NCBI GenBank assembly: GCA_007121075.1
Contig: SKMK01000003.1
Location: forward strand, 18,389-82,388
Origin: Syntrophomonadaceae bacterium
GTDB lineage: Bacteria; Bacillota; Dethiobacteria; DTU022
Length of the DNA: 64,000 bases
Direction: 5' to 3'
Numbering within the stretch: the stretch's first letter is position 1; each line of letters opens with the position of its first letter. Shown here piece after piece: positions 3,769 through 63,871 of this stretch. Below the pieces are notes generated by a model. The model was given only the letters and a program-made list of their open reading frames with translations. It made no database searches and was not told the origin of the DNA. The translations under genes and the position numbers were made by a program.

Positions 3769-3847
3769 CCTGGCACAACCCTCCTTCTTGTAACATTTCG
3801 TTTTTAGTAAATCTATTATACTTAGTAACATTTTTGATGTCAAAAAG

Positions 3848-3876
3848 AAAAGGCCCGGTTATACCGTCGGCCTTTT
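3848..3876 (-). terminator. intrinsic terminator of the upstream secreted-protein gene
   Basis: AAAAGGCC..GGCCTTTT hairpin followed on the minus strand by TTTTCTTTTTG. Confidence 0.7.
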
Positions 3877-3904
3877 CCATAATTCTTTGCATATTTTAAA
3901 CAAT

Positions 3905-4735
3905 TTATGGTTGCCTATCCCACCAACCTGTCTTTGCTTTTCCTTCTCTTACTTCGGAGGACTCATAAACCCTGGCGTAACCGTCAACGCGCATAGTTTC
4001 GCTTATGAAACCGTCTACATCCAGCTGGCGCTTTGTGGTGCCGCCCGTATTTTCAAAATCCGAACGGATCCTGAGATATTCTTCGCTACCTGAAGCAGCG
4101 GCAATCGACTGCCTGATATAGCCTTCTTCTCCAGGGTCCATATCCACACCAACCCTGACTGTTGCTTCATTACGGGGCAGGTTGATACTGTTTGAGCTCA
4201 GGATCCTTACATTTCTTTTCGCTTCGCTGTATGCATCTATTATGCCCTGTACTCTATCGTCGTAATAATCCTGTAAGCTTCTCATCCTGGAATAGTAAGT
4301 GGCCCCGTCCATATCTTCGGCCGCTCTCTCGACATTGAGGGCCTGGATGGCCTGCTCGCGATCTCTTTCCACTTGAGCCAGTGCTTCTTCTTCCATCCTT
4401 AAAATATCAGCTGAAGCAGCATTGGGGTCGGTTCTGCCCCTCATGTACATGCTTATATTAACTTTATCTTCAGTCCTGGTAAATGTACCGTCCCGGCGCC
4501 TGCCATCCCTGTACTGAACAGAATGAACATCGTGGCTACCGCTTGCTTCCCCAAATCCTCGAACATAAAAACTGCCTGAACCTCGATGGTACTCAATCTC
4601 TTTTTGATGGAAGATGTCCCCAATATACCTGAAGCCGGTACTGGTCCGTTTATACTCATCAGCGGCAGCAGGCAGGGAAAGTGCTAAGATTAAAATTAGG
4701 GTTAGTGCAATCCCTATAATTGCCTTTTTTTGCAT
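3905..4735 (-). CDS. secreted protein of unknown function (shares C-terminal domain with 54203..55234)
   Basis: Signal peptide MQKKAIIGIALTLILILALSLPAAA; C-terminal DPGEEGYIRQ...TGGTTKRQLD...VDGYARV. Confidence 0.75.
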   Translation of the reverse strand: MQKKAIIGIALTLILILALSLPAAADEYKRTSTGFRYIGDIFHQKEIEYHRGSGSFYVRGFGEASGSHDVHSVQYRDGRRRDGTFTRTEDKVNISMYMRGRTDPNAASADILRMEEEALAQVERDREQAIQALNVERAAEDMDGATYYSRMRSLQDYYDDRVQGIIDAYSEAKRNVRILSSNSINLPRNEATVRVGVDMDPGEEGYIRQSIAAASGSEEYLRIRSDFENTGGTTKRQLDVDGFISETMRVDGYARVYESSEVREGKAKTGWWDRQP

Positions 4736-4822
4736 AAAGCGGGCACGTCCCTTCCTTTCATATTCATCTTAATATTAGTTATGTCTTCCCCCCGCATCAC
4801 CCCCAAAAGAGTTCTAAAAAAA

Positions 4823-4899
4823 TGGTCGGAGCGATAGGATTTGAACCTACGACCTCTTGACCCCCAGTCAAGCGCGCTACCAAACTGCGCCACGCCCCG
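4823..4899 (-). tRNA. tRNA-Pro(GGG), CCA encoded
   Basis: Minus strand CGGGGCGTGGCGCAGTTTGGTAGCGCGCTTGACTGGGGGTCAAGAGGTCGTAGGTTCAAATCCTATCGCTCCGACCA; anticodon loop CTGGGGG, T-loop TTCAAAT, pairing acceptor stem. Confidence 0.95.
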
Positions 4900-5328
4900 A
4901 TGTTAATTAATACTTTATACAATTCTTAGTTCATTTTAAATCAAGGTTTTCAAAAAGTCAACAATCGTGTTGCTCTACCCGAACAGCAAAGGAGTGTGCT
5001 AAACTATGAGTACATTTCTTTTTGATGCAACGATAACTCCCTCAAGTACTTTTAATTATGATGCAACGGGCAATCGTTACATACTAAGGATATAAACAGA
5101 ATAGGAGGTGCAACAATCGAAATAACCCGGGAACATGAATGTAAATTTTGGCTTTTCTCTCCTCTGGAGGGAAAAGCGCCCGAAAAGAAGAAACGCGAAT
5201 TATATACCCGGCGCAGCATGGAGGCCCTGTCGGTTTTCTAAAATAAATATCGGGATTTATTTGCTTCAGAAATATGAAGTAGTTTTTACGCAAAATAATA
5301 ATAGCTGATCAGGAGGTTAGATCAAACA

Positions 5329-47995: not shown

Positions 47996-48200
47996 TACCG
48001 TTCACCCGGCCTTTTTAATATTGATCATGTAATAGTATAGCACAGCGATATCTGCACGGAAAGGCTCAGAATGGTGATTTTAAACTAAATTTAACTGATA
48101 CCGCTGCTTTATGCAGGAATAAGCCCCGGAATGTCGAATAGACTGAACTAATTGGGTCATAAAAAACATCAATAGAGGCTGAAAGGAGCTATACACCAAA

Positions 48201-49004
48201 TTGCTTAACACCCAGGATCTGTTTCCAGCAGCCTTACTTTTCATTCTCGGCCTCTGTTTCGGCAGCTTTTTGAACGTCCTCGTATACCGCCTGCCTAAAA
48301 AACTATCCCTGACCAGCCCGCCATCCAGCTGTCCCCGGTGCGGAAAGAAACTGGGCGCTATGGAGCTAATCCCGGTTGTCGGTTACCTGTTCTTGAAAGG
48401 TCGCTGTCAGGACTGCGGCGCCAGGATCGGTATACGCTACCCCCTGGTGGAGCTGTTGACCGGTATTCTCTTTATGCTTATTTATTTATTTTACGGCCTC
48501 TCCCTGGAGTTTTTCATCTATACCACTCTATTGTTCCTGCTTTTTGGCATCGCCCGGATCGACCTCGAACACCGGATTGTTCCCAATATCATGGTCGGGA
48601 CAGGACTGCTAATCGGTTTGATTTTTTATCTGCCCGGCCTCCTGCCCGGTCTGCTGCCGGTGCCGGAAGCCCTGATTAGTGAAAGGGCCTTTACCGATGC
48701 CCTGTTTGGAATGTTCCTGGGAGGCGGGATCATGCTGGTCATTTTTTTGGCAAGCCGCGGCGGTATGGGCGCCGGGGATATCAAACTGATGGCCCTGATC
48801 GGCTTTTACGTTGGCCTGCGTGGTACAGCGGCAGTCCTTCTCTTCGGCTTCCTGTTCGGTGCTGTAACCGGCCTTGCTTTCATGGTCACCGGAAAGCTGA
48901 CCAGGAAAGACGCCCTCCCTTTTGCCCCTTTCTTATCCCTGGCCACACTGGTCCAGGTTCTGTGGGGTGAGCAAATTTGGGACTGGTATACCAGCCTGTT
49001 GTAA
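48201..49004 (+). CDS. pilD: prepilin peptidase (A24)
   Basis: CFGSFLNVLVYRLPKK; CPRCGKKLG...CQDCGARIG; IDLEHRIVPN; GMGAGDIKLMALIG. TTG start. Confidence 0.95.
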   Translation: MLNTQDLFPAALLFILGLCFGSFLNVLVYRLPKKLSLTSPPSSCPRCGKKLGAMELIPVVGYLFLKGRCQDCGARIGIRYPLVELLTGILFMLIYLFYGLSLEFFIYTTLLFLLFGIARIDLEHRIVPNIMVGTGLLIGLIFYLPGLLPGLLPVPEALISERAFTDALFGMFLGGGIMLVIFLASRGGMGAGDIKLMALIGFYVGLRGTAAVLLFGFLFGAVTGLAFMVTGKLTRKDALPFAPFLSLATLVQVLWGEQIWDWYTSLL

Positions 49005-49138
49005 TTTTTCCGCTCCGAATGTATTTACATTGCGCCTGCCAGGGCGTGCGTCCGGATCCAGGTGAAAATTTTTTCCGCCTGGGCGTCCAGCGTTGCTTGA
49101 TACCTTAATAAAAAACTGATTGAAACAGGAACACGTCT

Positions 49139-49567
49139 GTGAAAAAAACATCATTTTTTAGTAACTGTGGTTATACCTTAATCGAACTGCTGGTGGCTGT
49201 AGCCATACTGGGCCTGGTAGCGGCACCAATATTTACGCTTTTTAACAGCGGTTTTTCTTCGATCGCCGTTGCGGGAAGACAAAGCGCCGCTATCAACCTG
49301 TGCCGCGAGAAGATGGAAACTGTCAAAGCCGGTGATTTCGATCAACTCTACGATTTTTATATTTCAAATGCAGGCAGCCCCCATGTTGAGGATAATATCC
49401 CCGGAGCCCCTCTTTTCCGGCGGGTTACCGAAGTCGATGTTGTTAACCCCGCAAATGGATCTCTGCCCCCCGGGGCTGAGGTTCTATCTGTTACCGTATC
49501 CGTTTACTGGACCTCAGGTTCGGGCGAAAAGTCAGAAAGCCTGGAAAGCAGGCTGGCAAGAAGGTGA
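49139..49567 (+). CDS. type IV pilus minor pilin / GspI-like pseudopilin
   Basis: NCGYTLIELLVAVAILGLVAAPIFTLF prepilin N-terminus; directly upstream of further pilus genes. Confidence 0.85.
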   Translation: MKKTSFFSNCGYTLIELLVAVAILGLVAAPIFTLFNSGFSSIAVAGRQSAAINLCREKMETVKAGDFDQLYDFYISNAGSPHVEDNIPGAPLFRRVTEVDVVNPANGSLPPGAEVLSVTVSVYWTSGSGEKSESLESRLARR

Positions 49568-50142
49568 AAGAGTCGTTATTGCATAAATTAAAACATCTTG
49601 AAAACGGCTTTACACTGGTGGAAATGGTCGTAGCCTTTGCTCTGCTCGGCCTGGTTATTTCCGCCCTTTATTCCTTCTATTTATTCGGACTGCAGGCCTG
49701 GAACCGCAGCGACGAGCGGATGGAGCACCAGCAAACAGCCCGAATTGCCCTGGACAAAATGATCAGGGAGCTGCAGTATGCTCACCTGGTTAAATGCAGT
49801 ATCGATCAAAATGACTGCAGCAGCGGTGTGCCCTGCGAGATCATTTACTTCAGGATTAACGTCGCCGGAACCTCTACCAGGCACAGCTTTCGCCTTAACC
49901 ATACCCAGCTTCATTTTGACCGGCGCCGGGACAGCAACAATTCGATCCGGTCTACCAATGTCGTCGCCCTGGGCATAACCGGCCTGGAATTTTTAATCGA
50001 CGAACAGGAGACCGTCTTCATTACGGTCAGGGCCGGAGAAGGCTCCAGCAGGGTTGTCCTTACCGGGGCGGTGAGACCTCGTAATTTACCCCCGCCGCAG
50101 TCCGGTCACGAAAACCATGAAGGCGGTGACGTCGATCATTAA
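49564..50142 (+). CDS. GspJ-like pseudopilin
   Basis: ENGFTLVEMVVAFALLGLVISALYSFYLFG. GTG start overlapping the previous gene. Confidence 0.85.
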   Translation: MKESLLHKLKHLENGFTLVEMVVAFALLGLVISALYSFYLFGLQAWNRSDERMEHQQTARIALDKMIRELQYAHLVKCSIDQNDCSSGVPCEIIYFRINVAGTSTRHSFRLNHTQLHFDRRRDSNNSIRSTNVVALGITGLEFLIDEQETVFITVRAGEGSSRVVLTGAVRPRNLPPPQSGHENHEGGDVDH

Positions 50143-50614
50143 CAAAAGGATTTACTATGTTTGGTTCTGTGATAAGGGGATGGCCCTGGCCCTGGTTTTA
50201 ATCTTCACCGCCGCCCTGATGATTTTGGGGGCCGCTGTAATAACTTTTGCCGTCAATGAAAGGTTGATCACCGCATACAACAACAGCGATATCCGCCTTT
50301 ACTATATTGTCGAGGGAGGCCTGGAGACAGGTCTGGCCGTCCTTAGAGAAGACTTTTATTATAATGATGAGCTAAACGGGTCCCTGAGGGAGGGTACCTT
50401 TACAGTTTACTTCACCGACGAATACCAGCACTACAATGAAAACCGCAAAGACGAGGAGGAAGAAGAATATTTCGAAAATGAGGATAAGATCCGTTTTATC
50501 CGCTGCGTGGGCACCCTGGGCGAAAACAGCAAGGCCATGAGTATAGCGGCGGAGCAAGATGAGCAGGGCCGGCTTTACATCCTCAGGTGGTACCGGATTT
50601 TCCCCTACCACTAA
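50117..50614 (+). CDS. PilX/GspK-like pilus accessory protein
   Basis: GMALALVLIFTAALMILGAAVITFAVNERLITAYNNSDIRLYYIVEGGLETGLA. Confidence 0.7.
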   Translation: MKAVTSIINKRIYYVWFCDKGMALALVLIFTAALMILGAAVITFAVNERLITAYNNSDIRLYYIVEGGLETGLAVLREDFYYNDELNGSLREGTFTVYFTDEYQHYNENRKDEEEEEYFENEDKIRFIRCVGTLGENSKAMSIAAEQDEQGRLYILRWYRIFPYH

Positions 50615-50688
50615 GATCAATTAACCATTTAAGTAAATCGGCTTTTAACAGAATACCGGTTGTCGAAAGGAGAGCAACTATCACATTG

Positions 50689-51789
50689 ATGAGTACAATT
50701 AATACTTCAGCCGCACCAGGGCACCGCATCAGGGGTAAATATTCACCGATCGGCATTGATTTTGGCAGCGGCCGGGTCAAGATGCTCCAGCTGAAGCAGC
50801 AGCGGGGCAATTTTCACGTTCATGATAAATGTCATTTCCCCATGCCGCTGGAAACAACACCAAACAGCCTTATTGCCAGCACTGCCGATCCGCATCTCCT
50901 GCTTGAACAGCTTCGCCAGGCGAAACATAATTGCAACTGGCGCGGCAACCGGGCCTGCCTTTCTATGGACAGCCGGGCCTGCTACACCCGCGCGATTTCT
51001 CTGCCCCCATTAAGAACCCGGGAGCTTAAAGAGGCCGTTCGCTGGGAAGTCAGGAAAAATTTCCCTTTCGAGATTGATAATGCGGTGGTCAGCTGGGCAG
51101 TATTAGGTAACGGATCCGGCCCGGAACAACCGGGCCGCAGGTACTTAATTGCCTCGGTTCAGAAAACCACAGCTGATTTTTATACCGCAGTGGCCCAGAA
51201 AGCCGGCTTCAAACCCGTTTCACTGGAAATACCGCTGACCGCCCTGCTGCGATCTGTTAAACTCCGGCCGAAGGGCCCGGACCCCGGCGCCAGCAAGTAT
51301 CAGCTGCTCGTAGATTGCGGCTTCAGCTCAACCCTGGTCCTGCTTACTGTAAAGGGAACCTACTGCTTTCATCGGGTTCTAAACCTGGGAGCCGGACATT
51401 TCTACCGGGCAGCAACAGGGGGAAAGAAAGGCGACCTGAAAGCGGCCCTGCGCCTGGTTCACAGCCGGGCCTCTCTGGCAGAAAAAGGCCTCATGGTCGA
51501 AGCCTCCAGGTTGGCCCGGGCAATAAGCGAAACCCTGGCCTACTGGTCTTCTTTGTCACATAACGACCCGGTAAACCCTGCCGTTATGGAAGTAAGCGGG
51601 GGTGGCATCTTAATTCCTGGTCTGGCCTCCTACCTTTATAAAGAACTGGGTTTAAAACCCCGCCTGTATAACCCGGTTCATCTTATAAACAGTGTCCGGG
51701 TTGAAAATGGAACCGGCTCTGGAAACGGTTTCCGGGAAACTCTTTATACCACCGCCCACGGGCTTACTCTCAGGGGGTGGTTGAAATGA
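50689..51789 (+). CDS. pilM: type IV pilus assembly protein PilM
   Basis: IGIDFGSGRVKMLQLKQ; LKEAVRWEVRKNFPFEIDNAVVSW; precedes PilN/O-like genes. Start placed at MSTINT after AAAGGAG. Confidence 0.87.
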   Translation: MSTINTSAAPGHRIRGKYSPIGIDFGSGRVKMLQLKQQRGNFHVHDKCHFPMPLETTPNSLIASTADPHLLLEQLRQAKHNCNWRGNRACLSMDSRACYTRAISLPPLRTRELKEAVRWEVRKNFPFEIDNAVVSWAVLGNGSGPEQPGRRYLIASVQKTTADFYTAVAQKAGFKPVSLEIPLTALLRSVKLRPKGPDPGASKYQLLVDCGFSSTLVLLTVKGTYCFHRVLNLGAGHFYRAATGGKKGDLKAALRLVHSRASLAEKGLMVEASRLARAISETLAYWSSLSHNDPVNPAVMEVSGGGILIPGLASYLYKELGLKPRLYNPVHLINSVRVENGTGSGNGFRETLYTTAHGLTLRGWLK

Positions 51790-52340
51790 TCCCCGAACTG
51801 GATTTGAGAACACCTGAATATATCGCCTCCCGCCGCCTTTTTGGCCCGCCGTTCTTAAAACTATTATCCGGCATCCTGGGGTTCTGTATGCTGGTAGGCG
51901 CATTCTATGCAGCGACCATATACCCGGACTGGCTGCGCCGGGAGCTGGAACAAGAAATAGGCCTTGCAATTGGGCTCAGGGAAGAAGTTGCGCCCCTCCT
52001 GGAACTGGCCGAAGAAACCGCCCTGCTCAAAGCCCGGTCCGATCTGGAACAGGATCTGCATAAATCTTTAGATCCGCCCCAGGAATATCTGCTTGTCGCC
52101 AAAAAGCTGGCCTCAGCCCACCGCCTTAATTTGGAAAAGGTAACCGTTGACCGAAATGGCAGCCTCTTTCTAAAAGGGTGGAGCAGGGATTTAGGTGATA
52201 TTGCTCTGTTCAGCCAGGTTCTTGAATGTGAACCATGCTTTGTTTCTTCCGAAGTCCGGCTAATAAACCGCGGGCCCGGGGGAAACTACTATTTTGAACT
52301 GACAGCGCTCGGAACCGGAAATGGAGGCGAAATGGAATGA
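51777..52340 (+). CDS. PilN-like pilus assembly protein
   Basis: Position between pilM and PilO-like; single N-terminal TM and coiled coil. Confidence 0.7.
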   Translation: MVEMIPELDLRTPEYIASRRLFGPPFLKLLSGILGFCMLVGAFYAATIYPDWLRRELEQEIGLAIGLREEVAPLLELAEETALLKARSDLEQDLHKSLDPPQEYLLVAKKLASAHRLNLEKVTVDRNGSLFLKGWSRDLGDIALFSQVLECEPCFVSSEVRLINRGPGGNYYFELTALGTGNGGEME

Positions 52341-52912
52341 GTGAGAAAAGAACACGGGGCCCGAAAAACGGGAAAGGATTTAAATTATTTATTATAATGG
52401 CCATTTTTACGGCAGCTTTTTTAAACCTGCCGGCAGACCATTACAACGAGGCCAAAAGGTTGCGGGAACAGTTAACCGATACCCGCAGTGAAAATATGCA
52501 GTTAACTGCTGTACTGGAAGGGTCCGGCCTGATTGAATTGGAACAGGACCGGTTAGAGGGAGAAAAAGAACGCCTGGAAGCACTAGTTCCTCTTGAACAG
52601 GATCTTCCTTTTTCACTGATCAAGCTTGAGGAAGCTATAAGCCGCTTCCCCCTGACCATTCACGAGATCCGGGCCGGGGGAAAATCCAGGCATTCTCCAT
52701 ACAGCAAAATTAAAATTGACCTTGCAGTGTCCGGGCCTCCGGCAGAAATCGAAACCTTCCTGAGACAGTTAAATAATCTGCCTTACCTCATCTCTGTGGA
52801 CAATCTTACCTGGTCAAGCGGAAACGAGGAAGATCTGGTAGTACTGGATCTGGAACTTTTTTTCATCGATCCTGCTGAAGTAAAACCGCTGCTGGAATGG
52901 CCAGAGTTATAG
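52337..52912 (+). CDS. PilO-like pilus assembly protein
   Basis: N-terminal TM, coiled coil, ferredoxin-like ISRFPLTIHEIRAGG... and IETFLRQLNNLPYLISVDNLTW. Confidence 0.72.
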   Translation: MSEKRTRGPKNGKGFKLFIIMAIFTAAFLNLPADHYNEAKRLREQLTDTRSENMQLTAVLEGSGLIELEQDRLEGEKERLEALVPLEQDLPFSLIKLEEAISRFPLTIHEIRAGGKSRHSPYSKIKIDLAVSGPPAEIETFLRQLNNLPYLISVDNLTWSSGNEEDLVVLDLELFFIDPAEVKPLLEWPEL

Positions 52913-52968
52913 CAACCGGATTCTCTCCTTACTTACAGGCACCAGCATTCAACAAAGGGGATGGTTAT

Positions 52969-54201
52969 ATGGCTGTACAATACCGTTTTACTGCTATAGA
53001 CTGGAATGGCAAAAAAATACGCGGTGAATTAACCGCGACAAACAAAACCAAAGCTCTTGAGCAGCTGCAAGATCGCAACCTGGTCCTGCTTGGGTTAAAA
53101 GAACAGGGCCCATTTCAAAGGGCGGTGAAAAATGTTTTTCTGAATGCCCTGTACAGTATTGGTTACCGTTCTTACACCAGCCGGGAACTGATGATCTTCT
53201 GCCGGCAGTTTGCAACCATGCTGCAGGCCGGGATCAGTGTTTTGCACTGCCTCAGGGTTTTGTCAGGACAAAAAGAACTGGCCTGCCTGCAAAACCAGAT
53301 CGGCGCAGCGGCCCTGGAACTCGAGCAGGGTGGTTCCCTCTCGTCTGCCCTGCTTTGTGGAAGAGAAAAATTTCCAGCAGTAATGGTTAGCATGGTGGAG
53401 GCAGGTGAAGCCAGCGGCAAGCTTGATCTGATCATGGAAAAAATGGCCGACCATTTCGAAAAGCAGCATGATTTTGCCGAAAAGATCCGCTCGGCAACCC
53501 TTTATCCAACTTTCATCGTCCTTGTTTCAATAGCCGTCACGGCAGTACTGGTTATTTTTGTCCTGCCCCAGTTTGCAGGCATTTTTAATGCCATGGGGAT
53601 GGAAATGCCGGCCTACACCCGCTTGCTTCTCACTTCTGCCGTAATCTTTTCCCGTTACAGGATCCTGTTCCCTCTCCTTTTGATCTGCCTCGCCGCCGGC
53701 CTTCTTTACTTCCTGAAAACAGAGAGAGGCAGGCGGTTATTTGACCGCCTGCGCTTACGACTGCCTTTGTTCGGCAGGATCTACAGGCAAGCTGCCGCAG
53801 CACGGTTTGCCAGGATCATGTCCACCCTGCTGGCAAGCGGTATCAATTTGCACAGTGCCCTGCTCCTTTCGAGCAGGGTCGCCTACAATACCGTGCTTTC
53901 AGAATCAATAGCCATGCTCAGTGAAGCCCTTAACCGGGGTGAGTCCCTGGCCGGTCCGATGCAGCGGGACAAATACTTTCCCGCCCTTTTGACCGAAATG
54001 GTGCGCATCGGCGAAGATACAGGAACCCTCGAGCATACCTTAAACAGGACCGCTTTATTCTATGAAAAAGAAACAGCTTATGTGGTTGAACGCCTGGGAA
54101 CCATTTTAGAGCCGGCCCTGCTGTTAATTGTAGGGTTCTTTATCGGCTTGCTTGTATTCTCCATTCTCTCTCCAATGTACCGGGTGTTTGAAATGATGTA
54201 G
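52969..54201 (+). CDS. pilC: GspF/PilC inner membrane platform protein
   Basis: YRFTAIDWNGKKIRGELTATNK; FCRQFATMLQAGISVLHCL; VRIGEDTGTLEHTLNRTALFYEKE. Confidence 0.93.
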   Translation: MAVQYRFTAIDWNGKKIRGELTATNKTKALEQLQDRNLVLLGLKEQGPFQRAVKNVFLNALYSIGYRSYTSRELMIFCRQFATMLQAGISVLHCLRVLSGQKELACLQNQIGAAALELEQGGSLSSALLCGREKFPAVMVSMVEAGEASGKLDLIMEKMADHFEKQHDFAEKIRSATLYPTFIVLVSIAVTAVLVIFVLPQFAGIFNAMGMEMPAYTRLLLTSAVIFSRYRILFPLLLICLAAGLLYFLKTERGRRLFDRLRLRLPLFGRIYRQAAAARFARIMSTLLASGINLHSALLLSSRVAYNTVLSESIAMLSEALNRGESLAGPMQRDKYFPALLTEMVRIGEDTGTLEHTLNRTALFYEKETAYVVERLGTILEPALLLIVGFFIGLLVFSILSPMYRVFEMM

Positions 54202-54202
54202 C

Positions 54203-55234
54203 TTAATCCGCTTTATCAGCTACATGCACGGTATAAAGGATAACCATGTTGTCGGGAGCAATAATGTGGTCTGGAAAGTGGAGCTGTCCCGTAAAAATAT
54301 AACTGCCTTCCTGTTCAGGATCATAAGCGGGCACAGACTGACTGTCCCACTCCACTTCTATACCGGTTATTTCGATTACTTCTGCAGTGATGCTGATGGT
54401 CCGGTCAAGCTTAAGAGTTTCCTGCCGGGTACCTACTGGCACCGTGGTTTCAAAATCATCGCTTTCCAGGACAAAGACCTGATCGTTGAAATCATCTTCA
54501 AAACCGTCTTCTTCCAGCTCAGTTTCCGTGGTGGTGAAAAAACCTTCTTCCCGGCCCGAATCTTTTGTCTCCAGTTCCCCTTCTTCCGGATTGCCCTGAT
54601 CATCTTTTCCGCCCCCGTCGGCCGCAGGCTGGAGCGAGTCTATCACTCTTGCATACCCGTCAATTTCAGCGTCTTCGAAAAGATATACTCCGGTAGCAGG
54701 GCAGATTAAATCTATACGCCGCTTCATTGTTCCACCGGAAGTAAATGCGTCCTGATCGATAACAAACATACTGCTCAATTCTTCATCGAAGTAAACCTGG
54801 TCGGAAGCGCTCCAATCCTGGCGCAGATGGCCTTCCTCGCCGGGCTCTGAATCCACCTTGACGGCAAAAACCTGTTCGGCCAAATCGTCAGGCAGGCCGG
54901 CTAACTCAGGGTTAAGTTTAACTGCCGAGCCCACAGACAGTCCCCGCAGGTGCCTGTCGTCAACATCCCAGTCACTATCAGCCCTGACCTTTATTTCTTC
55001 GGGATCAAGATAAATCGACTCATCACGCTCAAAAGCCCCCCTGCCTTCCACGAGGGTTTTATGCTGGGCCGGAGATGAGCTCTTATCGCCGGTCTGGATC
55101 TTGAGCAGAATTTTTCCGTCGAGATCGTAATATTTGTCATACCTTATGTTTCCGGAGAATGAATGCACAGGAGCGGATAAAGAAAGGACAAAAAAGAAGA
55201 CAACAAGTAGAGCCACAAAATTACTCGGCCTCAT
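54203..55234 (-). CDS. secreted protein of unknown function (shares C-terminal domain with 3905..4735)
   Basis: Signal peptide MRPSNFVALLVVFFFVLSLSAPVHS; EPGEEGHLRQ...SGGTMKRRID...IDGYARV. Confidence 0.75.
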   Translation of the reverse strand: MRPSNFVALLVVFFFVLSLSAPVHSFSGNIRYDKYYDLDGKILLKIQTGDKSSSPAQHKTLVEGRGAFERDESIYLDPEEIKVRADSDWDVDDRHLRGLSVGSAVKLNPELAGLPDDLAEQVFAVKVDSEPGEEGHLRQDWSASDQVYFDEELSSMFVIDQDAFTSGGTMKRRIDLICPATGVYLFEDAEIDGYARVIDSLQPAADGGGKDDQGNPEEGELETKDSGREEGFFTTTETELEEDGFEDDFNDQVFVLESDDFETTVPVGTRQETLKLDRTISITAEVIEITGIEVEWDSQSVPAYDPEQEGSYIFTGQLHFPDHIIAPDNMVILYTVHVADKAD

Positions 55235-55475
55235 GGTATACACTTCCTCCCTGATAAAAATAGCGGCAACCATTTTTTTTACAGCGATCCTGTTTGTTGC
55301 CGGCGGCCGGTTAATCTCTCTTTTTTTTTAGCCGGGCAGGCGGCCGCTACCTGCCGGACTTTTTCCAGTTATTTTTCTGATCTTACAATTTTAAACTCCA
55401 CTACATTATATTTAAAATACCCAGCTTTGTCAAAATTTTAAAGAAAAGAATCGGGCCGGCATTTTTCCATACCAA

Positions 55476-56902: not shown

Positions 56903-56991
56903 GTTGGTGCGATAAATAACATACTTAAGTTTAAAGTTCAAGCCATAATAGTATGGCTTTTATTTCTTCATTTAATGGAGGGAACCGGTTC

Positions 56992-57858
56992 GTGGGAAAC
57001 CACTGGTTCGTATTTAAAAACCAAAAACAAAAAGGGCCCTATACCTGGAAACAGCTGTGGCTGGAAGCTCAAGCAGGCAGGATTAAGCCCAGGGATCTGG
57101 TCTGGAACAAAACCATGAAGGACTGGGTGATGGCTTCTAAGATACCGGGATTAATCAATAATCCCCGCAAACGGAATTACCTCACCATTGCAGTAATTGC
57201 TTCGGCCGTATTTTTCTTCGTCCTGAGTGGAGCTGCTTTCTATTACCTTTTCTTCTATACCGGCCCCCAGCTGGCGGTCAATGAAGAACAGGAAGAAAGA
57301 GACATTATCGAAGAAGCGGCAGGAGAAGATGAACTTAATAATAATGACCTGTTTGATCCAGATCAAATCGATCAAAATGACGATCCCGGCGGAAGCCAGG
57401 GAAATGAAACAGCTACCGCTCCCGACCCGGGCAACGACAATGACGATACCGACCCAACAGAATCCCGGGTGAAGAGGACCTCTTTTCAGGGCGGCACCTA
57501 TACCGGTCCCCTGAAAGACGGGGAACCTCACGGCTACGGAGTCTGGACTCACCCGGACGGACACCGCTATGAAGGAGACTTCAAAGAAGGCAAGATCGAA
57601 GGTTACGGGACCATGACTTTCCCGGACGGGGAAAGGTATACCGGCTACCTGGTTGACGGTAAAGCACACGGACAGGGGACCATGATTCACCCGGACGGCA
57701 GGCAGGTAAGCGGAACCTGGGTTGAAGGCATTTACCAGGGCGAAACCGAAGAGGATGATTATGACGAAACCGAAAACGGCGAAGATGATGATAACGGCGA
57801 AGATGAAAACGCTGACGGAGATAGCAATGATAACAACGAAAACAACGATGAAACCTGA
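56992..57858 (+). CDS. GYF_2-like domain - TM - MORN-repeat protein with acidic linkers
   Basis: WFVFKNQKQKGPYTWKQLWLEAQAGRIKPRDLVWNKTMKDWV; TM; three to four MORN repeats (YTGPLKDGEPHGYGVWTHPDG...). GTG start after GGAGGG. Confidence 0.8.
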   Translation: MGNHWFVFKNQKQKGPYTWKQLWLEAQAGRIKPRDLVWNKTMKDWVMASKIPGLINNPRKRNYLTIAVIASAVFFFVLSGAAFYYLFFYTGPQLAVNEEQEERDIIEEAAGEDELNNNDLFDPDQIDQNDDPGGSQGNETATAPDPGNDNDDTDPTESRVKRTSFQGGTYTGPLKDGEPHGYGVWTHPDGHRYEGDFKEGKIEGYGTMTFPDGERYTGYLVDGKAHGQGTMIHPDGRQVSGTWVEGIYQGETEEDDYDETENGEDDDNGEDENADGDSNDNNENNDET

Positions 57859-58925: not shown

Positions 58926-60470
58926 TCAATCATTTCCCTTGCTGACAGTAACTGTAACTGTATATATCCTTGACAAATTCTCAACTGTGTCAATAACTTC
59001 AATCTCAATAACTGTTTCATCTTCTACAAGCTCTATACTAACTGGTTCTCCACTATTCGCATCATCATCATCATTGATCTTTAATGTATGATCAAGATCA
59101 TCCAAGGTGGGGGTAATATCAATATTTTCTGTTTCGACTACTACTTCCACAGTGTAATCTTGAATGTAAGGATCAAATACCGGATCAAGTGCACCCGGAT
59201 CAACTGTTAAATCTTCCAGGATCGGATCTATTTCTAAGAAAAACTCTTCGCTGTTCCTGGTGGTTTTGCCTATCGTAGCAACAAGGATTAAATCTTTGCC
59301 GTAATCTTCGTCATTTTCTAACTTAATCTCAAATATTATATCGCCGTCTTCATTTACTTCCGGCCCTCCGGAGTGATAGCTAAACTCTACAACACTATCT
59401 TCATCTTCGGGATCCTCTAATAACACAATATCTGCCTCTGTACCTGGGGGCACGCCACCGGTCTCTATCGTAACCGTTCCAAAATGCGGTTCTCCGGGCT
59501 TCTTTTCAATATGAATATCATATATCTGGGGATAAATATAATAATATCTGCGCTGGGAAATTTCTACATCTTCACTTTCATTCACCACGCTGACCCTAAA
59601 AAAGTAATGTCCATAATCTAAATCTTTTGGTACATCAACATTAAATTGCGCATAATTATCCTCTACTGGCAGATCAGATACAGGATCAACTTCCGTCACC
59701 TCACTGGACTCGTCTTCCCCTTCAAGCTTCCTAAATTCAGCGTTAACAGTGCTCCCTCCGGGAACATTGTGGGTAGATACTGTTATTTCCACATCATGCG
59801 TCTCTTCGCTATCCTCATATTCATGAACCTGAGGGCTTAAAACTATGCTTTCGATATATGGTTCCGGAGGGGCTGGAATCTGGTAAAAAACAGCTGAACC
59901 GGAGCCATCTGACTGATCTTCTACTTCTTCCAGGTTTAGGGCCATCACTTCTGTTTCAAGACTGTAAGTCCTGCCGCTTTCAATATTGACAGCGTCAAGG
60001 TTAAAATTGATTAAGTTTTCCCGGGTTTCGCTTTTTTTAAATTCCAGATCAAATTCTATTTCACCTGAAATGTTTTCTACTATGTCCCGTATATCAGGCT
60101 CGCCCATCTGTTCATAAAATACGGAGCCCTCTTTCAGGTATATATAGTGGAGACGGTATTCCTCCAGGGACTCATCGATTTCAAGTTCTTCGATGTCTTC
60201 GTAGCTGTCTAATATTACAATTTTTTCTGCCACCCTCAGCTCTCTTGTAATAAAATCGGCTACCATTCTGGCATTTTGCTGGACATCAACCTGCTTTTCA
60301 CCAATGCTAAATGTGCTGAGGCCAAAAGTATAAAATGTATAAGCTATGCCCATGGTAATAGATAGCAAGGCCAGCACGATCATCAGCTCTATAAGCCCCA
60401 AACCTCGCACATCACTGATCATATTAGATAAATTGTACTTAATTCCACGCCCATAATTTTTCATCAACAA
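58926..60470 (-). CDS. very large minor pseudopilin with beta-sandwich/cadherin-like C-terminus
   Basis: VRGLGLIELMIVLALLSITMGIAYTFYTFG prepilin-like N-terminus; C-terminal LTVDPGALDPVFDPYIQDYTVEVVVETENIDITPT resembles the cadherin-like beta-sandwich family. Confidence 0.78.
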   Translation of the reverse strand: MLMKNYGRGIKYNLSNMISDVRGLGLIELMIVLALLSITMGIAYTFYTFGLSTFSIGEKQVDVQQNARMVADFITRELRVAEKIVILDSYEDIEELEIDESLEEYRLHYIYLKEGSVFYEQMGEPDIRDIVENISGEIEFDLEFKKSETRENLINFNLDAVNIESGRTYSLETEVMALNLEEVEDQSDGSGSAVFYQIPAPPEPYIESIVLSPQVHEYEDSEETHDVEITVSTHNVPGGSTVNAEFRKLEGEDESSEVTEVDPVSDLPVEDNYAQFNVDVPKDLDYGHYFFRVSVVNESEDVEISQRRYYYIYPQIYDIHIEKKPGEPHFGTVTIETGGVPPGTEADIVLLEDPEDEDSVVEFSYHSGGPEVNEDGDIIFEIKLENDEDYGKDLILVATIGKTTRNSEEFFLEIDPILEDLTVDPGALDPVFDPYIQDYTVEVVVETENIDITPTLDDLDHTLKINDDDDANSGEPVSIELVEDETVIEIEVIDTVENLSRIYTVTVTVSKGND

Positions 60471-60491
60471 TACCTGCCTGAAAAGTTTAGA

Positions 60492-60836
60492 TTACTCACC
60501 GGCCGGAAAAAAATATTTAATAGTACCGGTATGGTCTTCATATTCATAACCCACCTGCTTAACTTCTCCGGTTACTTCTAAAAGCAACTCATCAAAAACA
60601 ATAGTCAGGTTAGTTTCATCATACTGTTCTTCTAATCCGGAAGCAATCTTATTATCCATTTCTTCCTGGGCCCTGAATAGAGCTTCGCTTTTTCTGCCCG
60701 CACCAAAGATTCCGGAAAAACTGGTGGTGAAAAGCAAGGTGAAAGAAAAAATAATCATCATCAGTATCGATATGGCAATGAGTAACTCTACCAGGGTGAA
60801 ACCCTTTTGGTGGTTTATTAATTTTTTTATTACCAT
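60492..60836 (-). CDS. pseudopilin (GspI-like)
   Basis: HQKGFTLVELLIAISILMMIIFSFTLLF. Confidence 0.88.
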   Translation of the reverse strand: MVIKKLINHQKGFTLVELLIAISILMMIIFSFTLLFTTSFSGIFGAGRKSEALFRAQEEMDNKIASGLEEQYDETNLTIVFDELLLEVTGEVKQVGYEYEDHTGTIKYFFPAGE

Positions 60837-60854
60837 TTCATTATCACCTTTTCC

Positions 60855-62012
60855 TTAATCGCCGTAACGCCATTCTTCCATCCTGTAAAATGATAAATCC
60901 AGCCCGGTCTTGGCCATTTCTATCGGGCTGTAATTTAACTCCAGGTTACCCTCACCCTCAAAGTTATCGGCTATAATCCAGCCGGTTAGACTGCTGTTGC
61001 CAAGTAATAAAGTATCAGCCTGGGGGCCATAGATGACCCCTTCAAAGTTAGGTGTCCCTCCAAGATCAAATTTTCCGCCTTCCATCACTAAAATATTGAC
61101 ATTTACATCCGCATCGGAAGCATGCTGAAATGTACCGCCGCCGGTATAATTTCTTACATAGAACATCAAGAAACCTTCACCTTTAATAAATACTTCACTG
61201 TTGCCGGTGCTTCTAAAATCATCCACTACAATGGCTACCGTATTATTATCCAGGGTAACGTTCATATCATTGTTTTTCAAATCTATTCTGTCTGCTTTTA
61301 CCAGTAGATCTTCACTATTTTCAGTTTCAATATTCAATTCTTTATGATCTCCGTCCAAAACTATCTCTTCGTACTGGCTGTGTTCAGTTATAATTTCACC
61401 TTCAAAAGGATCACTTGAATCTAAAGGGCATACTCCATAAAAATCTGAATCTTCATCCTCACAGGGAGGAACCACGGGATCAAATTCACGTTTAAGGGGT
61501 ATCGTTTCAGCGTCTTCATCCAGAATCGCTTCTTCATCCATATCAATACTATCACCATAAACAACATCCCCTCCGGAGATTGTTCCCGCAACGCCATCTA
61601 CCTTAATTGTGTTGCCATATAAAGTAAAATCCACTTCCCTGTCTCCGAGGGTGACGACCACTGTTTGCTCAACACCTCTGTGGGTTCCAGTAGATTTAAT
61701 ATAGATTTCTCTTTCATCAGAACTCATGGAAACTTCAATCACAAACTGACCATCTGCAAAATCTACCGGTTCTGATGAGGGCGAGTTAACCAGATCTTGA
61801 TCAAGATCCTGGTTTTCAAGCAACTTCAAAGCTACAGCGTGGGCGCCTGACCGGGCTATATAATGGGCCTTCATTTTATTTTCATCCCTGGCCACCTGTG
61901 TTGTTTCGGTCATATTAAATAAAAACAATGTCAGCCCAATTAAAGTTAAGGCCAGGACTATTACCAGGGTCAACGGCAGTGCAAAACCACTTTCATTTTT
62001 GTAAATCTGCAT
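60855..62012 (-). CDS. PilX-like protein with polymer-forming-type C-terminal region
   Basis: NESGFALPLTLVIVLALTLIGLTLFLFNMTETTQVARDENKMKAHYIARSGAHAVAL. Start placed at MQIYKNE after AGGAGAG. Confidence 0.75.
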   Translation of the reverse strand: MQIYKNESGFALPLTLVIVLALTLIGLTLFLFNMTETTQVARDENKMKAHYIARSGAHAVALKLLENQDLDQDLVNSPSSEPVDFADGQFVIEVSMSSDEREIYIKSTGTHRGVEQTVVVTLGDREVDFTLYGNTIKVDGVAGTISGGDVVYGDSIDMDEEAILDEDAETIPLKREFDPVVPPCEDEDSDFYGVCPLDSSDPFEGEIITEHSQYEEIVLDGDHKELNIETENSEDLLVKADRIDLKNNDMNVTLDNNTVAIVVDDFRSTGNSEVFIKGEGFLMFYVRNYTGGGTFQHASDADVNVNILVMEGGKFDLGGTPNFEGVIYGPQADTLLLGNSSLTGWIIADNFEGEGNLELNYSPIEMAKTGLDLSFYRMEEWRYGD

Positions 62013-62100
62013 CTTATTGGCTCTCCTATCATCTGGAGCAATATTTTCATAGTATGTGAGCATTAGTAAGATAGTTGATAACTTTGCTTCATAAAAAACA

Positions 62101-62197
62101 ACCCACTTCGGCAGCCAGGCGATCCTAGCCCGCAGCAGCGAACCTTAGACCCTTAAGCTTTGCGCCCCCGCTTTTCAGCAGGTTTGCCATTATCGTT
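62101..62197 (-). promoter_or_regulatory. cyclic di-GMP-I (GEMM-I) riboswitch aptamer
   Basis: Minus strand GGCAAACCTGCTGAAAAGCGGGGGCGCAAAGCTTAAGGGTCTAAGG...GCTAGGATCGCCTGGCTGCCGA matches the GEMM core (GGCAAACC-GAAA-GG-CGCAAAGC, CUAA/UAGG receptor). Confidence 0.9.
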
Positions 62198-62229
62198 TGG
62201 GCTTTCTGTTATTTCCTTTTTGTTCCTTT

Positions 62230-62258
62230 ATTATAGTTGTTATTTGATATTATGTCAA
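62230..62258 (-). promoter_or_regulatory. perfect consensus sigma-A promoter driving the riboswitch leader
   Basis: Minus strand TTGACA - 17 nt - TATAAT. Confidence 0.85.
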
Positions 62259-62311
62259 TCTAAGCGCTTAAAATTTGTTTTACTTAGCAACATTCACAAT
62301 TAACAAACAGA

Positions 62312-63787
62312 TTAAACAAATATCCGTTTAAATTCTTCATAAGATGTCAGGCCTGTTTTTACTTTCTCCAGGCCGTTCAAGCGAAGCGGCGCCATCCCCT
62401 CTTCAACCGCTATTCTGCGAATATCCTGGGCTGACTTTACCTTCCTGACCGCTTTCCTTATTTTATCATTTACTACCAGCAGTTCAAATACCCCCGTCCT
62501 TCCGCTGTAACCGGTGTGATCACAAACAGAGCATCCTTGCGCGCTGTACAACTCTATCAAGCCGCCGGGATTTTCCACCGGAAACTCCGGTTCTTCTTTT
62601 AACAACTCTTCAGCAGCAATAGCATCCTTTCTCCTGCAGTTGCGGCACAGTTTCCTTACCAGCCGCTGGGATAATACACCGGTCAGGGTAGACTCGGCCA
62701 GGTAAGGCTCCACTCCCATATCCAGCAGGTGCACCACCGCCTTGGCGGAATCTTCGGCATGGAGGGTGGACAACACCAAATGCCCGGTAAGGGCTGCTTC
62801 CGTGGCCATGGTTCCCGTTTCGGAATCCCTGATTTCACCGACCATAATTACATCGGGGTGATTGCGGAGCACAGACCGCAACCCGGAAAAAAAGGTCACT
62901 CCCGCTTTCCTGTTATAGGGGATCTGGCTAATACCTTTAATCTTTTTTTCAACCGGATCTTCTATAGTAATAATATTCCTGTCTTCGGTATTTATTTCAG
63001 TCAAAGCAGCATATAAAGTTGTGCTTTTACCGCTTCCCGTGGGGCCGGTTGCGACAATAAACCCGTACGGGTAACAAATAAGTTCTTTAAACTTTTTCAA
63101 CTGGTCTTCCTTAAACCCGAGCTTGTTTAAATTCATCAACCCCGGCTCATGAAAAAGGAGGCGCAAAGTTATGCGTTCCCCATAGTAAGAAGGCAGGGTA
63201 GCAACCCGTACATCGATCAACTCCCTGTCTTTTAGCACTGACATTCTCCCATCCTGGGGGGTGCGGTTATTGGTTATATCCATGTTAGCCAGCACTTTTA
63301 CCCGTGAAACCAGCGAATCATGATATTCGGTAGATATTGAAAACCGGTAATGCAGGACCCCGTCAATGCGAAAACGAATTTTTACCTCATCTTCATGCGG
63401 TTCGATATGAACATCATTAGCCCTTTCCTGCACAGCCAGCGAAAGTAATTTGTTAAGGATTTCCACCGAAGGAAAGGTAGAATCCGGCCCCGTTGAAAGG
63501 ACCAGGCATTCTCTTTTACCCTCAAAGTCCGTTTCTTCGAACTGCCTGAAAAATTCAAAACCCTCTACTTCTTTCCCGTACTTACTGCTGACCTTGTTAA
63601 TCAGGGTTTCCAAATCGGAGTCTTTAATCAACACTGGTTGAATCTCCATCCCGGTAATCATGCGCAGATCATCGATAGCTTCTATATCTGCCGGGTGCAT
63701 CATGGCCACCATCAGGACATTGTTTTCCCTATTAACCGGAAAAACTTTATACCGGTTGGCCGTGCTGCGCGGTATTAATTTAATCAC
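62312..63787 (-). CDS. GspE/PilB ATPase; frame continues upstream to the window edge but is interrupted by a TGA at 63872..63874
   Basis: GPTGSGKSTTLYAALTEI; VGEIRDSETGTMATEAALTGHLVLSTLHAEDS; CRNC/CSVC zinc motif. Upstream frame reads EQLIKNDIITRKQLEEALAVQGERAQRGETAYLGNILLELGY*TDEELARVLARKHNVPYFNI. Confidence 0.9.
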   Translation of the reverse strand: MIKLIPRSTANRYKVFPVNRENNVLMVAMMHPADIEAIDDLRMITGMEIQPVLIKDSDLETLINKVSSKYGKEVEGFEFFRQFEETDFEGKRECLVLSTGPDSTFPSVEILNKLLSLAVQERANDVHIEPHEDEVKIRFRIDGVLHYRFSISTEYHDSLVSRVKVLANMDITNNRTPQDGRMSVLKDRELIDVRVATLPSYYGERITLRLLFHEPGLMNLNKLGFKEDQLKKFKELICYPYGFIVATGPTGSGKSTTLYAALTEINTEDRNIITIEDPVEKKIKGISQIPYNRKAGVTFFSGLRSVLRNHPDVIMVGEIRDSETGTMATEAALTGHLVLSTLHAEDSAKAVVHLLDMGVEPYLAESTLTGVLSQRLVRKLCRNCRRKDAIAAEELLKEEPEFPVENPGGLIELYSAQGCSVCDHTGYSGRTGVFELLVVNDKIRKAVRKVKSAQDIRRIAVEEGMAPLRLNGLEKVKTGLTSYEEFKRIFV

Positions 63788-63871
63788 TTCTTCGCTTAAA
63801 TCCAGTTCATCGATATTAAAGTAGGGGACATTATGTTTCCTGGCCAGAACCCGGGCCAGCTCTTCATCAGT

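Follow-up and report, generated by a model that had tools for sequence, protein, structure and literature searches.

A family of secreted proteins, apparently confined to one lineage of alkali-loving anaerobes, with one class encoded behind a proline tRNA gene

The gene for protein A and its setting

The window, by which we mean the whole stretch of 64,000 nucleotides of Syntrophomonadaceae DNA that was analysed, carries on its minus strand a gene for a secreted protein, referred to here as protein A. The gene is found between a tRNA gene and a terminator-like hairpin, and the locus comprises the following features.

3905..4735 (-): gene A, encoding the 276-aa secreted protein A (class I)
4661..4735 (-): Sec signal peptide in residues 1-25, with cleavage between AAA and DEY by inspection; conserved in orthologs
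4217..4408 (-): insert forming a predicted helical hairpin, residues ~110-173, from alignment and AlphaFold2
3950..4168 (-): shared C-terminal domain of protein A, residues ~190-262, PGEEG...GGTTKR...VDGYARV
3908..3928 (-): aromatic C-terminal tail GWWDRQP, conserved (G-W/F-W-... in classes I and II)
4933..4961 (-): promoter of sigma-A type ahead of the tRNA, TTGACT-17-TAAAAT, a 10/12 match
4823..4899 (-): tRNA-Pro (anticodon GGG), called by ARAGORN
4736..4822 (-): 87-nt leader from the tRNA to the start codon, with an SD-like GGGGGTGATG upstream, a conserved start-proximal GAAAGGAAGGGACGTGCCCG and no promoter-like site
3846..3878 (-): terminator-like hairpin with a T-rich tail, downstream of gene A

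The initial annotation had described an open reading frame with a signal peptide at 3905-4735; both are present, and the strand, which it did not give, is the minus strand. The N-terminus, MQKKAIIGIALTLILILALSLPAAADEY..., is by inspection that of a typical Sec signal peptide. Comparison with the nearest ortholog (96% amino acid identity, PWGX01000017.1) gives a dN/dS of 0.09 and, judged by this ratio, gene A is a real gene under purifying selection. The mature protein contains no cysteines, and the mature family proteins tested are acidic, with pI values of 4.1-5.2. Protein A terminates in ...AKTGWWDRQP, with neither a C-terminal transmembrane segment nor an LPXTG-TM-charged C-terminus.

In 19 of the 22 class I loci the coding sequence is preceded, at a distance of 72-154 nt (mostly 72-93), by an intact tRNA-Pro(GGG) gene, and the proteins encoded at these linked loci are often only 37-48% identical. 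The three remaining loci comprise one truncated within the gene by the end of its contig (L014), one in which no tRNA is seen (L017), and one, L021 in genome G029, in which only the tRNA 3' end (CGCTCCGACCA) precedes the leader, reflecting either a deletion or an assembly artefact. A promoter of the form TTGAC(T/A)-17-TA(A/G)AAT occupies the same place upstream of the tRNA in all 19 linked loci. Most class I leaders harbor an extended SD-like element, GAAAGGA(A/T)GTGCCCG, directly before the start (GAAAGGAnGTGCCCG), and about half of them have a further one resembling GGAGGTG, 60-70 nt ahead of the start; an Rfam scan of the leaders returned tRNAs only. Behind gene A, the terminator-like hairpin has a centroid energy of -18.5 kcal/mol and a z-score of -2.95 (68-nt region), and the next gene, which encodes a lysine-2,3-aminomutase-like protein (KAM), is equipped with its own 12/12 promoter.

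Because the promoter is upstream of the tRNA, with usually none in between, and the terminator-like hairpin stands behind the gene, the elements from promoter through tRNA-Pro, leader and gene A to terminator are likely to form one co-transcribed unit, as predicted from their arrangement. Passive synteny is a live rival, since in the family at large these genes keep the order plsY-tRNA-A-KAM; the tRNA would then be carried on a separate transcript, and gene A would be read from a promoter inside the leader, where four of the 19 leaders do contain weak promoter-like sites (8-9 of 12). We regard this as possible but doubtful, as the other 15 leaders have no such site and yet the start-proximal SD-like element is conserved, and in the window no terminator-like site is found between the tRNA and gene A.

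With the single tRNA-mRNA unit as the preferred reading, the mRNA of gene A would be released by processing of the tRNA 3' end, and the supply of protein A would be tied to a housekeeping tRNA promoter. Co-transcribed tRNA-mRNA units are known, for instance the tRNA-tufB and metY-nusA operons of E. coli. They too have a protein gene placed behind a tRNA gene, with the promoter upstream of the tRNA. In contrast, the protein gene here belongs to a secreted orphan family rather than to the translation or transcription machinery, and the unit is a predicted one. The arrangement is directly testable.

A shared domain in several architectures

A second member of the family is encoded in the same window.

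54203..55234 (-): class IV paralog, with a signal peptide, its own N-terminal region, the shared domain and a Big_4-like C-terminal stretch (sub-threshold)

The open reading frame extends over 54203-55273, and the real start is at 55234, where it is preceded by GGGAGGAAGTG. The C-terminus of protein A had been proposed to be homologous to this protein, and the comparisons bear this out. BLASTP aligns the two with 35% identity over 94 aa (E=3e-9), and the alignment scores 44.3 bits, the best of 1000 shuffles reaching 30.8 bits; the shared region covers approximately 75 aa at the C-terminus of protein A. Two profiles were built, A3 for the tRNA-linked class and A5 for the shared domain as found in the remaining classes, and their profile-profile comparison with hhalign gave P=98.6-98.9 and E values of ~1e-15 to 1e-17 (best 1.2e-17) over 72 columns. 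The signature that had been read from the two window proteins recurs as PGE(E/S/T)G...Q...GG(T)xK/R...GxAxV in about 100 sequences of related genomes. Outside the domain, the N-terminal region of class I and that of classes IV and V show only a weak relationship in profile comparison (P 5.5, E 0.007). An internal duplication, with the N-terminal half related to the C-terminal half, was also considered and found no support in the comparison.

The helical insert had been described as present only in the protein A copy. This holds within the window pair; among orthologs, those of g1, the window's genus, and of g9 carry the insert, at approximately 65-80 aa, and those in g3, g4, g5, g7 and g13 are without it. 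The initial annotation had also proposed structural modelling, and the result is a confident hairpin within a model that is otherwise of low confidence: AlphaFold2 with a two-sequence input predicted helices at mature residues 79-113 and 119-156, mostly at pLDDT 75-89, with the rest of protein A as strands at pLDDT below 50 and a mean of 43 for the whole. The model of the class IV protein has a mean pLDDT of 35.5. Judged from such models, protein A and the family are probably beta-rich.

In the window's genome there are eight family genes (C3 x2, C6 x2, C33, C41, C67 x2) in at least four architectures. We refer to five classes, I-V, which are our own labels assigned by profile scores and tails rather than from a tree, with class V told from class IV partly by its tail, W-x-x-L-F. 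Class I proteins, to which protein A belongs, are ~200 aa long, or ~265-290 aa with the helical hairpin insert, and end in GWWD or GFWD. Class II proteins (210-230 aa) also end in GWW, whereas those of class III (140-210 aa) have W-x-x-L-F at the end. Class IV, which includes the 54203 protein, is larger (315-450 aa) and has an N-terminal region of its own plus an acidic or Ig-like extension, and class V (260-480 aa) combines the class IV N-terminal region with the W-x-x-L-F tail and often occurs as tandem pairs beside yhaM. The tails are highly constant, with W-x-x-[LFM]-[FY] in 54 of the 55 class III and V members and G-[WF]-[WFY] in all 27 members of classes I and II. Across the family the shared domain spans approximately 75-120 aa, the most conserved positions are Gly, Pro and Thr turn residues, an aromatic tail is conserved as well, and nearly all full-length members have a signal peptide by inspection. 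Such diverse architectures could reflect diverse functions.

The class V tandem pairs (G000:C67:16687-18420, which is L135, and L139, L140, L141, L145, L148 and L149) occur in several genomes with yhaM on one side and a 3-hydroxyacyl-CoA dehydrogenase gene on the other, and several class V leaders have AGCGAGGTG(C/T) in common upstream of the SD. A resolvase-like gene adjoins the gene for a multidomain member in G017 (L138). In G009 (L169), both the class IV gene and pilC are interrupted, the former by a split into two frames and the latter by an in-frame TAA, through either decay or assembly error.

Novelty and taxonomic range

Neither the two window proteins nor the family members gave a match above the curated cut-offs in Pfam or NCBIfam, and profile searches of PDB sequences returned matches at chance level only (best E=0.095). 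The suggestion that the proteins represent a possibly undescribed domain family thus stands, since no described Pfam family is matched above its cut-off and the profiles of the classes align significantly. As far as the Pfam, NCBIfam and PDB libraries and a narrow literature search extend, the sequence comparisons support an undescribed family. Secreted orphan families as such are nothing new; what is distinctive here is the tRNA-led arrangement.

A number of sub-threshold matches were set aside. The NCBIfam SanA match to protein A (E 0.0036, 16.6 bits against a cut-off of 363) falls within the helical insert, and the near-matches in the PDB, including IsdB, are at chance level and lie mostly over the same insert. 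Big_4 (PF07532), a bacterial Ig-like domain, resembles residues 277-331 of the class IV paralog at 13.8 bits, below its cut-off of 22.1; this stretch is outside the shared domain and is absent from protein A.

Within the taxonomic family to which the window belongs, 29 of 43 genomes contain the domain; profile A5 detects it in 27, and A3 adds G062 and G023. In the remaining families of the order neither profile gave a match, and A5 gave none in the 55 other genomes of the class or in a sample of 384 genomes from the rest of the phylum. When 60 related genomes were searched at the protein level, about 20 proved to contain members. There were 21 matches, of which that in G040 (E 0.007, internal stop) lies within an unrelated protein and disappeared in the profile search. 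No relatives were found in viral contigs. On the basis of these searches, the protein family is apparently confined to one GTDB-level family. Since 14 of the 43 genomes there show no member, the role it plays is not one that the entire lineage requires.

A named relative is the MAG 'Syntrophomonadaceae bacterium T1Sed10_145'. A study of soda-lake sediments reported more than 50 such MAGs, with 16S sequences related to Dethiobacter (PMC6146748), and the name of the T1Sed10_145 MAG suggests that it came from this study. The host group consists of alkali-loving anaerobic bacteria, in which the family is present in many copies. Lineage-restricted, multi-copy secreted families are common in uncultured bacteria and few have been delimited; for the present one we delimit the family itself, describe its architectures and taxonomic bounds, and define a conserved, predicted tRNA-led transcription unit. 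Should these proteins prove to build the cell surface, they would provide a concrete handle on how soda-lake anaerobes meet high pH, and would bear on possible interaction with syntrophic partners.

Possible roles at the cell surface

Protein A would be located outside the membrane and, having no recognised wall anchor, would most probably be an abundant structural component or a component of the envelope or matrix. Searches of Pfam and NCBIfam gave no domain match to enzymes, and no catalytic signature was seen. The aromatic C-terminal tail may act as the contact for docking, either between family members or with a partner, and the helical hairpin of the window's genus and g9 may be a projecting accessory element. 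Taken jointly, a new lineage-restricted family of Sec-secreted proteins, expressed from a tRNA-led unit, with an abundant structural or envelope role and docking through the tail, is a reading that we hold tentatively, at somewhat short of even chances for the whole. A more specific form of it, in which the new domain makes the main extracellular matrix or surface fibre, the W-x-x-L-F and GWWD tails mediate co-assembly, and the tRNA-Pro transcript couples the output of one subunit to translation capacity, appears rather improbable.

Ligand binding is the main rival to the structural role. The paralogs would be secreted binding or sensing proteins, each recognising a different ligand, such as a polysaccharide, a metal or the surface of a partner cell, through a domain common to all, with inserts and N-terminal regions supplying the diversity. 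The sequence around the one conserved domain is indeed variable, both at the N-terminus and in the inserts, G017 encodes a multidomain secreted version of ~867-876 aa (L138:203-2803) with the shared domain, an S/T-rich linker and no Pfam match, and the Big_4-like tail of class IV points the same way, albeit below threshold. However, there is no match to any known binding module, and the top conserved positions, being Gly, Pro and Thr turns, are more scaffold-like; we therefore see such a function as conceivable though on balance unlikely.

The secreted surface and matrix proteins of monoderm bacteria include SLH S-layer proteins, LPXTG proteins and TasA/camelysin fibres. Protein A resembles these in its Sec signal peptide, its presumably beta-rich nature and its multiple copies, but has none of their signatures. 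An SLH S-layer protein was rejected, as neither protein A nor the genome contains an SLH domain, and so was a sortase-anchored protein, as protein A has no LPXTG signature although the genome has two sortases. It might also be supposed that the terminal F of W-x-x-L-F is the insertion signal of an outer-membrane beta-barrel, given the terminal aromatic residue in classes III and V and the strand-like sequence. This reading was rejected as extremely improbable, because Omp85/BamA is absent from the window's 90%-complete genome, with control searches positive in seven genomes; moreover, classes I and II do not end in F.

Finally, the family could be an accessory of a type IV pilus or type II secretion-like machinery. 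The class IV gene at 54203 is convergent to pilC at the end of a pilin operon, and class IV is found directly behind pilC in 12 genomes of several genera. However, the same pilC occurs without a class IV neighbour in six genomes where the contig continues (G011, G023, G019, G034, G027 and G022), and no pilus genes lie close to the other four classes. The adjacency is for these reasons probably conserved gene order only; with an association to the pil operon that is not constant, a dedicated pilus component is disfavoured, and we think an accessory role quite improbable. Two prepilin-like or type IV pilus gene sets flank the class IV region of the window, at 48183-54201 (+) and 58926-63871 (-), and the latter includes a long prepilin-like protein of 514 aa at 58926-60470. 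At 56953-57858 (+), the window encodes a membrane protein that, by inspection, has an N-terminal GYF_2-like segment, an acidic linker and C-terminal MORN-like repeats.
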